Source: Candidatus Amesbacteria bacterium RIFCSPLOWO2_01_FULL_48_25
Lineage (GTDB): Bacteria > Patescibacteriota > Microgenomatia > CAZETR01 > Amesbacteraceae
Reading direction: 5' to 3'
NCBI GenBank assembly: GCA_001773695.1
Contig: MEXN01000002.1
Span: forward strand, 1-36,115
DNA: 36,115 nucleotides
Shown: piece after piece, positions 1,637 through 7,384 of the stretch
How the letters are laid out: the number at the start of each line of letters is the position of its first letter
How positions within the stretch are numbered: the first letter of the stretch is position 1
Notes under the pieces: generated by a model
What the model saw: only the letters and a program-made list of their open reading frames with translations
The model's database searches: none
Told to the model about the DNA's origin: nothing
Translations under genes and position numbers: made by a program

Positions 1637-2404
1637 GTGAATATTACTTGGTTTGTGTTGATGGTTTTACCTTTCGTGTTTGGATCCGTGCGTGTTTATG
1701 CTCAGGAATATAGTTCCGGTTACGCAGTGGGAACAGAAGTTAACGAAGAGACGCTTTTGAATGGTGACATTCTCTGCACAACGAGAGAAGGTGTCAAAAA
1801 GTGCGTTGGTGAGTATAATCCAGATATATTTGGAGTGTATGCGGTTAATCCTGCGGTAAATCTTGATATGTCGGATATAATTCCCAAGAGCGTACCTGTT
1901 ATACATACTGGTAATGTGTCGGTTAGAGTGTCTGCGGTAAATGGTGCGGTTATAATTGGTGATTATATTTCGACTTCATCTGCCCCGGGTGTGGGTCAGA
2001 AGGCTACTAGAGGCGGAGTGGCATTGGGTGTCGCGTTGTCTGAGTTTGATTCCGCGGATAAGCAACAGGTGGGCTTGATTCAAGTTGCTATTAATATTCG
2101 GCCGGTAGTTGCATCTACTACCGTCCGAGGAAACGTGTTGGAAGTGATTAAGCAGGGGCTAGTTGCACCTACTTTGACTCCTTTAGCATCATTAAGATAT
2201 CTTCTGGCAATATTAATTGCACTGATCTCGTTGACATTAGGCTTTATATATTTTGGAAAGACTGCCAGAAGTGGTGTAGAGGCTATGGGTCGAAATCCGA
2301 TGGCAACCCGGGTGATTGCTGTGGGTATGATTTTAAATATGATGTTTACCCTGATTGTTGTTGCTGGTGGACTGTTCATTGCTTATCTAGTTTTGATAAT
2401 ATAG
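1637..2404 (+). CDS. Secreted-domain protein with C-terminal ATP-synthase-c-like hairpin
   Basis: This 255-residue protein sits where subunits a and c normally precede atpF. Residues 1-23 are a signal peptide ending VYAQ. Residues about 40-155 resemble the surface domain that often terminates phage-tail and CPR surface proteins (GDIL, GVYAVNPAV, GDYISTSSAPG, ALGVAL). Helix 1 is about 187-207 and helix 2 about 226-253; the cytoplasmic loop between them contains GVEAMGRNP, which matches the E-x-x-(A/G)-R-(N/Q)-P loop of subunit c. The topology (both ends outside, loop inside) also fits c. The essential Glu/Asp of helix 2 is absent: the aligned place holds Asn234/Met235, helix 2 has no acidic residue, and helix 1 lacks the usual glycine repeat. 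The GTG start is chosen because it gives a complete signal peptide and follows the -10 by six bases. Confidence 0.75.
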   Translation: MNITWFVLMVLPFVFGSVRVYAQEYSSGYAVGTEVNEETLLNGDILCTTREGVKKCVGEYNPDIFGVYAVNPAVNLDMSDIIPKSVPVIHTGNVSVRVSAVNGAVIIGDYISTSSAPGVGQKATRGGVALGVALSEFDSADKQQVGLIQVAINIRPVVASTTVRGNVLEVIKQGLVAPTLTPLASLRYLLAILIALISLTLGFIYFGKTARSGVEAMGRNPMATRVIAVGMILNMMFTLIVVAGGLFIAYLVLII

Positions 2405-2417
2405 AGTTGTTGTTTTT

Positions 2418-3011
2418 ATGGACTGGCTAATCTTTTTGTTCATTTGGGTTTTAACCGGTGTAGCGGTGTTTTGTGCCTGGGGGTGGTGGAGAGCCACCTG
2501 GGAAGTGGAGAAGAATGAGACTAGTGATGAGAAAGTATTTAAAAGGGCCAGGCATAAGGCGTTGAAGATTGTGAGAGAAGCTCGGGATAGAGCGGTGGAA
2601 ATAATTAATGATGCGGGAAGTGTAGCTTCGAACCAGGATGCTTGGTTGGATGGGCAAGTGAGGAAGGCCACTGAGGAAAAACTGGCGGGATATCGGGAAA
2701 TGTTGAGCAAATTGTATGAGGAGGTAAAACAGAAAGCGGGGCAAGAGATGGAGGAGTTTGAGTCGGCTATCGAAAAGGGAGCAGTTGAGGCGGAGAAAGC
2801 TGTGGCTGAAAAAATGAAGATGGATTATGATCAGGCAAACGCGCAAGTGGAAGAGTATAGAACGCTTAAAATGAAACAGGTGGAGGAGCAGGCACAGAGG
2901 GTGATGGGTGAAGTGGTGAAGCGGGTGGTGGGCAGGGCAATTCCGCTTCAAGAACATAAGTTGTTGATTCGGGAAGCGATTGAGGAGGCGAGGCGGGAAA
3001 ATGTACTCTGA
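2418..3011 (+). CDS. atpF: ATP synthase subunit b (peripheral stalk)
   Basis: This is a 197-residue protein with one N-terminal membrane helix (about 3-22), then a long charged Ala/Glu/Lys/Arg-rich coiled coil to the end. That is the architecture of F-type subunit b, which holds the alpha/beta head against rotation. It is longer than the usual 155-175 residues. It starts 13 bases after the c-like gene and overlaps the delta gene by 11 bases. Its presence with delta argues for a real stator, unlike the F1-like ATPases of mycoplasmas where the membrane part is unrelated. Identification rests on architecture and gene order, since b subunits conserve little sequence. Confidence 0.85.
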   Translation: MDWLIFLFIWVLTGVAVFCAWGWWRATWEVEKNETSDEKVFKRARHKALKIVREARDRAVEIINDAGSVASNQDAWLDGQVRKATEEKLAGYREMLSKLYEEVKQKAGQEMEEFESAIEKGAVEAEKAVAEKMKMDYDQANAQVEEYRTLKMKQVEEQAQRVMGEVVKRVVGRAIPLQEHKLLIREAIEEARRENVL

Positions 3012-4892: not shown

Positions 4893-5725
4893 TTTCCAAA
4901 AAAAGAATTATTCAGGAGACCGACACATTGCTGGGCCTAAAGTCGTTGGTGGACGTGTACGAGGAAGTGGCGGCAATCAGAATGCAGAGAGTGCGCGGGG
5001 CAGTTTTAACCTCCCGGCAATTTTTAGCGGAGATTTCGGAGGTCTTCTCGCGAGTGCGGGCTGCATATCGAAAGGAAAAGATCGTGGGGGGAATTGTGAG
5101 AAATGGGAAGACGGTAGCGGTCTTTGTTTCGGCGAACACGGGATTGTATGGGGATATAGTGGATCGAGTATTTGATAAGTTTGCGGCTTTTGTGGCAGGA
5201 AACCTGCCAGAAGTAGTGGTGGTCGGGAAACTGGGCGTGAAGATGATGGCGGACCGAAGATTGAATGTGCTGTATAACTATTTTGACTTCTCGGACGAGC
5301 AGGTAGAGCCGGAGAGTTTCGCCATGGTGATGAGATATCTGATGCAGTTTGAAAAGATTGTGGTGTTTTACGGAAAATTTAAGAGCATTTTGGTGCAGGA
5401 GGTGGAAGGCACGGTATTGTCGGGGGAAGATATAGAGAAGCAAGTAGCCAGGGAAGTGGAAGTGGCAGAGAGGTATTTATTTGAACCTAATGTCGTGGAA
5501 ATGGCCAGAATCTTTGAGGGGGAGATTTTGGCGTCGGTGTTTGAGCAGGCGTTACATGAGTCGCAGTTGGCTAAGTTTGCTTCTAGAATGTTGAATTTGG
5601 ACCGAGCTATCGTTAATATAGACCGGAGGCTTATGGAGGTGGGTCGGGAGCAGCGGAAGTTGAGGCACAAAGAGATTAATAGCAAACAGTTACTTAGATT
5701 GTCGGGAATTGGTCTATGGCGGTAA
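4889..5725 (+). CDS. atpG: ATP synthase F1 subunit gamma (rotor shaft)
   Basis: A 278-residue protein with long helices at both ends forming the coiled-coil shaft. The central Rossmann-like part has SANTGLYGD (82-89) where most gammas have S-x-(R/N)-GLCGG. The C-terminal helix keeps the pattern seen in family members ([14 protein letters not shown]). The start overlaps atpA by ATGA and the end overlaps atpD by ten bases. The foot of gamma normally docks on the c-ring loop; here the only candidate partner in the operon is the c-like hairpin protein at 1637-2404. Confidence 0.93.
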
Positions 5726-7134
5726 GTAAGGTGGCTAGAGGGATAGTGGAAGCTTTGCGAAGGCCTCTGGGACGGGTTGTGGAAGTAAAGGGACAGGTAG
5801 CCTTGATTGAGTTTGAGGCGAACTGGCCGGTATTGGGGGAGGTGGTGGTGGGTGAGGGTGAAGCAAAAGCAGTACTTCAGGTAGCTGGGTCGGCGGGGAG
5901 GGGCCGGTTTAATTGTGTGATTTTGAGTGGGGCACGGTTGCTGTCTCGCGAGAGCCGGATTAGAAGGACGGAAGGAACATTGCAAGTGCCGGTCGGGGAG
6001 AAATTGTTGGGGAGGGTGATAGATGTGTTTGGAAGGCCGATCGATGGTAAGAAAGAGGCTTTGGGTGCGAGTGAGAGCCGGCCGGTTTTACGAGAGCCAC
6101 CCACTTATGAGGAGGTCTCAACCCGGGAGGAGGTATGGGAGACGGGGATTAAGGCCATTGATTTGTTTTCTCCTTTAGTAAAGGGAGGAAAGATGGGGTT
6201 GTTTGGCGGGGCGGGCGTGGGTAAGACGCTCCTATTATCCGAGATATTGCATAATATTTTGACAGCAAAGAGTGGGGGGCAGGTTAGTGTGTTTGCTGGG
6301 GTGGGTGAACGGGTACGGGAAGGGCAAGAGCTGTATGAGGAGCTGGGTAAAAAGGGAGTATTGCCTGGGGTGGCATTGGTTTATGGAACCATGGGAGAAA
6401 ACGCCGCGGTGCGGTATTTGACGGGGATGGCCGGGGTAGCGCAAGTGGAGTATTTCCGGGATGCGGGGAGGGATGTGTTGTTTTTTGTGGACAACATATT
6501 CCGGCTGGCGCAGGCGGGAAGTGAACTGGCTACTTTGATGAGGGGACTGCCGTCTGAGGATGGGTATCAGGCGACACTTTCATCAGAAATGGCTCAATTT
6601 CACGAGAGGCTTGTGTCTACAAACCGGGGGGTGGTGTCGACAATTGAGGCGATTTATGTGCCGTCGGATGACCTATTGGACCAGGGGGTGCAGGCGGTGC
6701 TACCGTATTTGGATTCGATAGTAACATTGTCTCGGAGTGCCTATCAGGAGGGGAGATTGCCGGCTATTGATGTATTGGTGTCCACGTCGTCGATGCTTAG
6801 ACCGTCTGTGGTGGGCCTCCAGCATTACCAAACGGCTCTGACTGCGCAGGGGATGTTGAAGAAGGCTGAGAGCTTGGAACGGATGGTGAGCTTAGTGGGA
6901 GAGGCGGAGTTATCAGCGGAAAACCAGACGTTGTACAAGCGGGCAAAAAAACTGAAAAACTTTATGACCCAGAGCTTTTTTGTGGCTTCGGAGCAAACGG
7001 GCCGGCCGGGTGTATATGTGCCGGTAAAAACTACCATTAATGATGTGGCGGCCATAATTTCGGGTAAATATGACCACATAACCGAGGATAAATTTATGTT
7101 TGTCGGATCTGCTGGCGAGGTGGCTAATGGCTGA
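5716..7134 (+). CDS. atpD: ATP synthase F1 subunit beta (catalytic)
   Basis: A 472-residue protein of normal length. All catalytic elements are visible: Walker A GGAGVGKT (164-171), the catalytic glutamate in GERVREG (Glu198), Walker B in [11 protein letters not shown], the segment [10 protein letters not shown] and the C-terminal region [15 protein letters not shown]. The DELSEED-loop position reads EAELSAEN, close to consensus. The protein should hydrolyse and synthesise ATP normally. Its last bases overlap the epsilon start (ATGGCTGA). Confidence 0.98.
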
Positions 7135-7384
7135 TAGTGACGTAATTTTGGCTAGGGTGCGGAATCGGCAAGGGTTGGTATTTGAGGGGCAGGTTAGGGC
7201 GGTTTCGTCGGTAAACAAGAAAGGTCCATTTGACATCTTGCTTCATCATGCCAATTTTGTGTGTACGATCCAGAAGAAGTTAACATTACACCGGGTTGAC
7301 GGTAAGAAGATGGAAATAGCCGTGGATTCGGGAATAATGGAAGTCCATCGGGATCAGGTACTGGTATTTTTGGGGGTGGTGTAG
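7127..7384 (+). CDS. atpC: ATP synthase subunit epsilon, beta-sandwich domain only
   Basis: With the ATG at 7127, which overlaps the atpD stop, the protein is 85 residues. It fits the N-terminal beta-sandwich of epsilon ([18 protein letters not shown], then [15 protein letters not shown]). The family is usually 130-140 residues with a C-terminal two-helix arm that inhibits ATP hydrolysis; that arm is missing. The enzyme would thus lack epsilon-type autoinhibition. The gene ends ten bases before argS. Confidence 0.88.

Follow-up and report, generated by a model that had tools for sequence, protein, structure and literature searches.

An F1-type ATPase operon of Patescibacteria with a c-like subunit that lacks the ion site and carries an exported domain: a candidate motor of the cell surface

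What does a rotary ATPase do when its operon has no subunit a and its c-like subunit has no ion-binding carboxylate? This question is raised by seven genes at positions 1637-7384 of a stretch of 36,115 nucleotides, the whole of which we call the window, from Candidatus Amesbacteria RIFCSPLOWO2_01_FULL_48_25 (assembly GCA_001773695.1, contig MEXN01000002.1; position 1 is the contig end). These genes encode, in order, a fusion protein that stands in the place of subunits a and c, and subunits b, delta, alpha, gamma, beta and epsilon; argS and a gene for an M16 peptidase follow. Rotary ATPases are taught as ion-coupled machines, and we know of exceptions with an F1 of this kind in mycoplasmas only. 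A preliminary description of this DNA, made from the sequence, had proposed a rotary ATPase for mechanical or transport work, whose rotor carries outer domains. The core of that idea stands. Our results indicate, with a probability that we put at about 0.62, that the operon encodes a rotary motor at work on the cell surface, one that hydrolyses ATP without moving ions, and not a maker of ATP.

A c-type hairpin without the ion site

The fusion protein comprises a signal peptide, an outer domain and a c-like helical hairpin (Table 1). This layout, already noted in the preliminary description, is borne out by sequence, structure prediction and profile comparisons, and relatives of the protein conserve the hydrophobic start and an AQ at the signal peptide. 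The protein has no Pfam match of its own and does not reach the curated cut-off of ATP-synt_C (PF00137), the family of canonical c subunits. Among 75 relatives, five match PF00137 at E<=0.1, the best at 3.3e-4. A hidden Markov model comparison of the hairpin with canonical c, which had been suggested along with the preliminary description, gave a probability of 95.5% (hhalign, P 1.6e-8). When a profile of 75 fusions was compared with the PDB, the top six matches were c subunits, albeit weak ones (best E 0.007). In the AlphaFold model of the monomer (mean predicted local distance difference test score, pLDDT, of 91.2), the hairpin superposes on the c subunits of rings with a Foldseek TM score of 0.87 and deviations of 1.2-1.5 A. 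The hairpin is a c homologue without the ion-binding carboxylate.

The loss of the ion site is general. We examined 110 hairpins that were selected by their RNP motif, some genomes being counted twice. The carboxylate position, 20 residues after the Arg of that motif, is never Asp or Glu in these 110 hairpins, and 12 of 12 distant homologues likewise lack a carboxylate at the ion site, whereas nine of nine canonical c subunits from the same class have Glu there. That helix 2 contains no Glu or Asp had been correctly stated for the window protein. The aligned residue had been given as Asn234/Met235, a placement that the profile alignment rules out in favour of Leu239. In their helix 2 cores, the 110 hairpins have one acidic residue altogether, the Asp at +11 of a single sequence (L111). 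By contrast, other features are strongly retained: Ile at +8 is invariant, a polar residue at +15 is conserved as Asn in 98 and as His in 10 of the 110, and RNP is also invariant in two alignments of 29 and 75 fusions (A1 and A2). With an invariant RNP loop and no carboxylate, the hairpin has kept the part that meets gamma and epsilon and lost the part that binds ions. Helix 1 has also changed, as had been pointed out: it has a mean of 2.5 glycines in 26 residues, compared with 7-9 in canonical c.

The absence of subunit a, first noted for the operon, holds for the genome as a whole. In the source assembly (938,849 bases, 99.9% complete), a search for atpB and a canonical atpE found no match to PF00119 (subunit a) or PF00137, and positive controls worked. 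The same search finds PF00119 at 1e-47 to 1e-49 in two genomes of the same family (G003, G007), and canonical a and c are recovered in 29 of 59 relatives, two of them of the same family. A profile of canonical c from the class has one match in the source genome, which is the fusion hairpin itself (window 2207-2392, E 1.2e-4). The Pfam and profile searches together rule out a hidden a or c elsewhere in this genome, and hence the ordinary a-c pair that would have spoken against the proposal. Neither a gene for subunit a in the operons of this kind that we examined, nor a conserved membrane gene substituting for it at the loci examined, was found.

In related genomes a canonical pair does occur. 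Among the 59 relatives, 13 have both this operon and canonical a/c, 14 this operon only, 16 canonical a/c only and 16 neither (Fisher p=1), showing that the operon is independent of canonical F1Fo. In distant genomes with this ATPase, complete canonical a and c were found elsewhere in nine of nine. A normal pair beside this operon means that two separate machines are present, which does not refute the proposal.

Recurrence, the F1 head and the giant surface protein

We surveyed other genomes for the same fusion, and it recurs: a scan of 84,980 species-level genomes confirmed 164 loci of this arrangement. The best 80 of the 164 carry the labels of Amesbacteria, Woesebacteria, Levybacteria, Roizmanbacteria, Shapirobacteria, WWE3, Sungbacteria and related lineages, closed chromosomes included. 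Because the fusion recurs before F1 genes, in the order fusion-b-delta-alpha-gamma-beta-epsilon, in nearly all of about 100 loci, the arrangement is far beyond chance. About 29 of 192 genomes sampled across Patescibacteria (about 15%, counted by eye) have a hairpin-containing fusion, distant forms having the loop SIGRNPLSK or alike. This is a recurrent feature of tiny, mostly uncultured Patescibacteria and not the quirk of a single genome.

Intact catalysis, claimed for the window, proved to be the rule. The beta residues K155, T156, E181, R182, E185, D242 and R246 and alpha R376 (E. coli numbering) are retained in 85 of 85 cases. The ratio of nonsynonymous to synonymous substitution rates (dN/dS) is 0.02-0.17 in every operon gene where it was measurable, and every gene is under purifying selection. 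In the window, the open reading frames are as previously described and Pfam recognises OSCP/delta, alpha, gamma, beta and epsilon, the match of b being weak; among b homologues, an N-terminal transmembrane helix is present in 100 of 100. Alpha and beta score below the NCBIfam ATP synthase cut-offs (409 of 554 and 443 of 463 bits), which marks a divergent F1, and at lower score they also match the FliI/SctN families. In an unrooted tree of alpha plus beta, with mycoplasma sequences left out, these ATPases are split from canonical F-type and N-type enzymes by a branch with 100% support in the Shimodaira-Hasegawa-like approximate likelihood ratio test. Epsilon lacks the C-terminal inhibitory helices and has a median length of 88.5 amino acids, compared with 121-153 in canonical operons; so short an epsilon would fit a machine meant to hydrolyse ATP. 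In one subclade (L067, L102, L110, L116, L121, L138, L146, L149), b and delta have been lost and the fusion stands directly before alpha. Judging from its genes, this subclade may represent a natural rotor without a recognisable peripheral stalk.

A gene for a giant or fibre-like protein lies within 3 kb of the operon, mostly divergently, in 70 of 85 informative loci. Such a protein either combines a MerR-type helix-turn-helix and one transmembrane helix with a long fibre rich in Ser/Thr/Gly/Asn, or is fibre-like with the same composition. Counted by long open frames, the giant is nearly unique in each genome and placed at the ATPase, and in the source genome it is the sole such frame. In Woesebacteria CP055307, a closed genome, giant and fusion lie close together on either side of the chromosome start. 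Giants contain Collagen and Peptidase_S74 domains, and in distant lineages the neighbours of the operon are again exported surface proteins. In Sungbacteria (L147, L151, L157; a further fusion, L163, is cut at its own contig end), the link is within one protein: a giant-type N-terminus, helix-turn-helix-like and with a transmembrane segment, replaces the signal peptide and is joined directly to the outer domain and hairpin. The match to HTH_17 is weak in L151 (E 0.0018), and since the AlphaFold model of the Sungbacteria fusion is poor (pLDDT 41.5, with part of the N-terminal stretch at 69-80), the helix-turn-helix is there assigned by sequence likeness.

Upstream of giants, GGACA-N8-16-TGTCC palindromes occur 8 times in 19,950 bp, as against 5 times in 876,471 bp elsewhere, an enrichment of about 70-fold. 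This enrichment suggests that the giant does bind DNA through its helix-turn-helix, which probably also controls the divergent operon. The inverted repeat in the window (Table 1) does not fit the strict spacing. TTGGACA...TGTCCAA palindromes are enriched at giant starts, for example at L054, L056, L112 and L121 and at 1499-1536 of the window, and form a possible operator for the giant's own MerR domain. At L078 and L079, a phage-integrase SAM-like DNA-binding domain replaces MerR in a giant-like surface protein beside the ATPase (by Pfam in L079, by likeness in L078). Two giants (L065, L076) have stretches that by eye resemble Hint/intein self-processing domains, such as VWDLAIEGTHNFVANGIVAHNT.

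The outer domain is beta-rich at residues of about 29-157, and Foldseek matches it best to the capsid-decoration proteins of phages and to the C-terminal part of gp12, the preneck appendage protein of phi29. It also resembles chaperone-like Peptidase_G2 domains, and it occurs within giant surface proteins of these bacteria, with E values down to 3.5e-33. Phage proteins with this fold are trimeric, which suggests, by analogy, threefold contacts between the outer domains. Unlike in gp12 and the decoration proteins, with which it shares its fold, the domain is here tethered to a rotor subunit of an ATPase.

Several loci depart from the common plan. In two genomes (L195, L196), a single F1 operon lies between two fusion paralogues, and further secreted Ser/Thr/Asn-rich proteins are encoded around it. 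Lone fusion genes at L197 and L204, with no F1 in the stretch examined, each adjoin a gene for a transmembrane-anchored fibre-like protein. At L199, L201 and L203, a conserved protein with one transmembrane segment and a C-terminal GFSIG...FDYIV-like motif is encoded convergently, directly past epsilon. In the window itself, the right contig end also lies within a fibre-like surface gene (34573-36042, minus strand), so both contig ends break in such repeats. GC skew is strong and uniform over the whole window (1-36115), at 0.24-0.47, and an unusual strand disparity is known from a Microgenomates genome (PMC7143001).

Table 1. Features of the ATPase operon and of the adjoining giant gene, in window coordinates
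Feature	Position	Strand	Basis and remarks
Giant membrane-anchored fibre protein, N-terminal part, cut by contig end	1..1507	-	Divergent to operon; MerR PF00376, E 4.8e-13
Parts of the giant: MerR-type helix-turn-helix, one transmembrane helix near residues 96-114, fibre-like repeats	1..1507	-	Pfam, sequence
Putative operator-like inverted repeat CTTGGACAT-N20-ATGTCCAAG at start of giant gene	1499..1536		Intergenic repeat scan; presumed role
Fusion subunit in place of a and c: signal peptide, outer domain, c-like hairpin	1637..2404	+	255 amino acids
Signal peptide, residues 1-22, cleavage after VYA (by eye)	1637..1702	+	Sequence; helix 3-15 in AlphaFold model
Outer domain, about residues 23-160, beta-rich	1703..2116	+	AlphaFold pLDDT mostly 93-98; Foldseek PDB and viral matches
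c-like helical hairpin, helices 182-219 and 221-254	2180..2398	+	AlphaFold, Foldseek, profile comparisons
Loop R219-N220-P221, c-type loop docking gamma/epsilon	2291..2299	+	Present in 110/110 homologues (selected by this motif)
Leu239 at place of c-subunit ion-binding carboxylate	2351..2353	+	Profile alignment
Subunit b, one N-terminal transmembrane helix, peripheral stalk	2418..3011	+	Weak NCBIfam b match, E 9e-4; conserved position
Subunit delta (OSCP), real start probably ATG at 3001	2980..3444	+	Pfam OSCP above cut-off
Subunit alpha, arginine finger (E. coli R376) retained	3441..4892	+	Pfam, NCBIfam
Subunit gamma	4889..5725	+	Pfam, E 6e-24
Subunit beta, catalytic residues all retained	5716..7134	+	Pfam, NCBIfam
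Subunit epsilon, beta-sandwich only, real start probably ATG at 7127	7100..7384	+	Pfam ATP-synt_DE_N

A proposed surface motor and its alternatives

In the reading that we prefer, ATP hydrolysis would turn gamma, epsilon and an oligomer of the c-like hairpins, with the F1 head held by b and delta, and the outer domains would be turned or twisted outside the membrane. The most likely load would be the neighbouring giant fibre protein, several giants bearing the same outer domain. The giant would have its MerR helix-turn-helix inside the cell, cross the membrane once and expose a long beta/collagen-like fibre, and the motor might serve adhesion or surface motility by rotating, extending, assembling or resetting this fibre. 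The proposal of a rotary ATPase for work other than ion-coupled ATP synthesis is upheld in its core by the c homology without an ion site, the docking loop, the intact catalysis, the purifying selection, the independence from F1Fo and the linkage to fibre genes, while the ring, its turning and the load are parts that we infer. A more ambitious version seems doubtful to us and is offered tentatively: that this is a third, ancient F-type lineage, widespread in Patescibacteria, whose c ring, once driven by ions, has become a mechanical output shaft with outer domains that turn giant trimeric surface fibres, so that the whole would be an appendage motor powered by ATP.

Several observations weigh against a surface motor. 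The ring, the rotation and the ATPase activity are predictions from genes and a monomer model, with the conserved docking loop as indirect evidence for a ring. A canonical c ring is doubtful because the glycine packing motif of helix 1 is lost. A weak point is that, with no subunit a, b has no known anchor against torque, and the subclade that has lost both b and delta is hard to square with a fixed stator. No giant lies within 3 kb in 15 of the 85 informative loci, the outer domain also occurs in giants of genomes without this ATPase, and a purely regulatory link would likewise account for the helix-turn-helix of the giant.

Alternatively, the ATPase might not move a finished fibre but energise the export, assembly or length control of the giants, as FliI/SctN does in type III secretion. 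The lower-scoring FliI/SctN matches of alpha and beta, the tight genetic linkage to giant exported proteins, and an outer domain that resembles a phage appendage and chaperone-like Peptidase_G2 domains would all suit such a role. However, the operon retains a two-gene alpha/beta F1 together with gamma, epsilon, delta and the c-like hairpin, no export-gate gene recurs beside it among the neighbours at the loci, and giants with an N-terminal anchor could take the ordinary Sec route; we regard export as unlikely. Similarly improbable, and a little more so, is that the fusion forms a small, for instance trimeric, membrane anchor that serves as an F1 tether or conformational switch, in which gamma twists but does not rotate continuously. 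The trimeric phage proteins of the same fold, the missing glycine motif and the collagen-like and S74 chaperone domains of the giants, which also imply trimers, favour this explanation, yet the conservation of the RNP loop and of the residues around it matches that of c rings, and the hairpin superposes closely on ring subunits.

That ions are still moved, through another residue of the hairpin such as the Asn at +15 and with an unrecognised stator in place of a, would be in keeping with the conserved polar residue of helix 2, but we give this little credence. None of the 110 and 12 hairpins has an ion-site carboxylate, the helix 2 core offers one acidic residue in a single sequence, and no conserved membrane gene takes the place of a at the loci. 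Moreover, canonical a and c coexist with this operon in many genomes, where ion pumping is already served. Finally, a decaying ATP synthase operon, or an artefact of assembly or gene calling, could be imagined for a small genome with no a and no canonical c, since gene loss is common in such genomes and the loss of ATP synthase has been reported in the candidate phyla radiation (CPR; PMC10656485). This last explanation is extremely improbable: the dN/dS values, the intact catalytic sites and the recurrence of the same fusion in many independent genomes, closed chromosomes included, lead us to reject a degenerate operon, and in many other genomes this operon coexists with a complete canonical F1Fo.

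Across a large part of Patescibacteria, and often beside a normal ATP synthase, a c subunit without an ion site has thus kept the loop that docks the shaft. What is annotated in these genomes as 'incomplete ATP synthases' may therefore be another kind of machine, and inferences on energy metabolism and counts of ATP synthase presence need revision. The operons also allow the behaviour of a c-like oligomer in the absence of ions to be studied in nature, and they may encode a motor by which these bacteria, most of which live on other cells, attach or move at surfaces.

Comparison with known systems

A search of open-licence papers yielded no description of this arrangement, although an account elsewhere is possible. 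ATP synthases of CPR bacteria have been treated as F-type, A/V-type or lost (PMC10656485). The operon shares with canonical F1Fo the subunits b, delta, alpha, gamma, beta and epsilon in the usual order, the catalytic sites and the c-type loop. It differs in the absence of a, the hairpin without an ion site, the fused exported domain, the short epsilon and its separate F1 lineage. N-ATPases, too, accompany the main enzyme of some genomes as an additional ATPase related to F1, but they retain a and c and have another gene order. Membership of that group was rejected, as alpha and beta are below its NCBIfam cut-offs (355 of 750.5 and 393 of 752 bits) and neither a nor c is present. The parts of the ProAD account considered here list 20 F/N-type candidates with c subunits lacking the ion-binding Glu/Asp, called surprising (PMC11738941), and these 'non-catalytic' F/N-ATPases resemble the present hairpin in that respect. 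ProAD required both a and c in the sets that it counted, which would leave out operons like the present one, and those parts mention neither an outer domain nor a link to surface proteins (PMC11738941).

The closest parallels are in mycoplasmas, where F1-like X0 ATPases have been proposed to drive gliding (PMC11864180) and the MIB-MIP antibody-cleavage system depends on one of them (PMC12994834). Type 2 (G1, gliding) and Type 3 ATPases (PMC3369863, PMC11864180, PMC12994834) likewise have an F1 in the absence of a and of a canonical c, may occur together with a normal F1Fo and are linked to surface proteins, a link that here is one of genetic linkage only. Even the membrane subunit has the same layout as our fusion: MMOB1650 and MMCAP2_0577 have a signal peptide, a large outer part and two C-terminal transmembrane helices (PMC12994834). 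Nevertheless, the Patescibacterial operon is not a member of Type 2 or 3, since alpha and beta lie far below the NCBIfam cut-offs (339 of 600 and 344 of 850 bits for MMOB1660/1670, 249 of 520 and 341 of 570 bits for MSC_0619/0618) and b and delta are present in most members. Nor does beta have an N-terminal extension or the cluster a protein with 12 transmembrane helices, no recurrent neighbour of that kind being found at the loci examined. The transmembrane hairpin is here a recognisable c homologue with an RNP loop, the mycoplasma pair being compared by description only, and the surface protein linked to the operon is a giant fibre with a MerR-type anchor. By analogy, then, the mycoplasma F1-like X0 ATPases would be the nearest known system in function, built in a different way.

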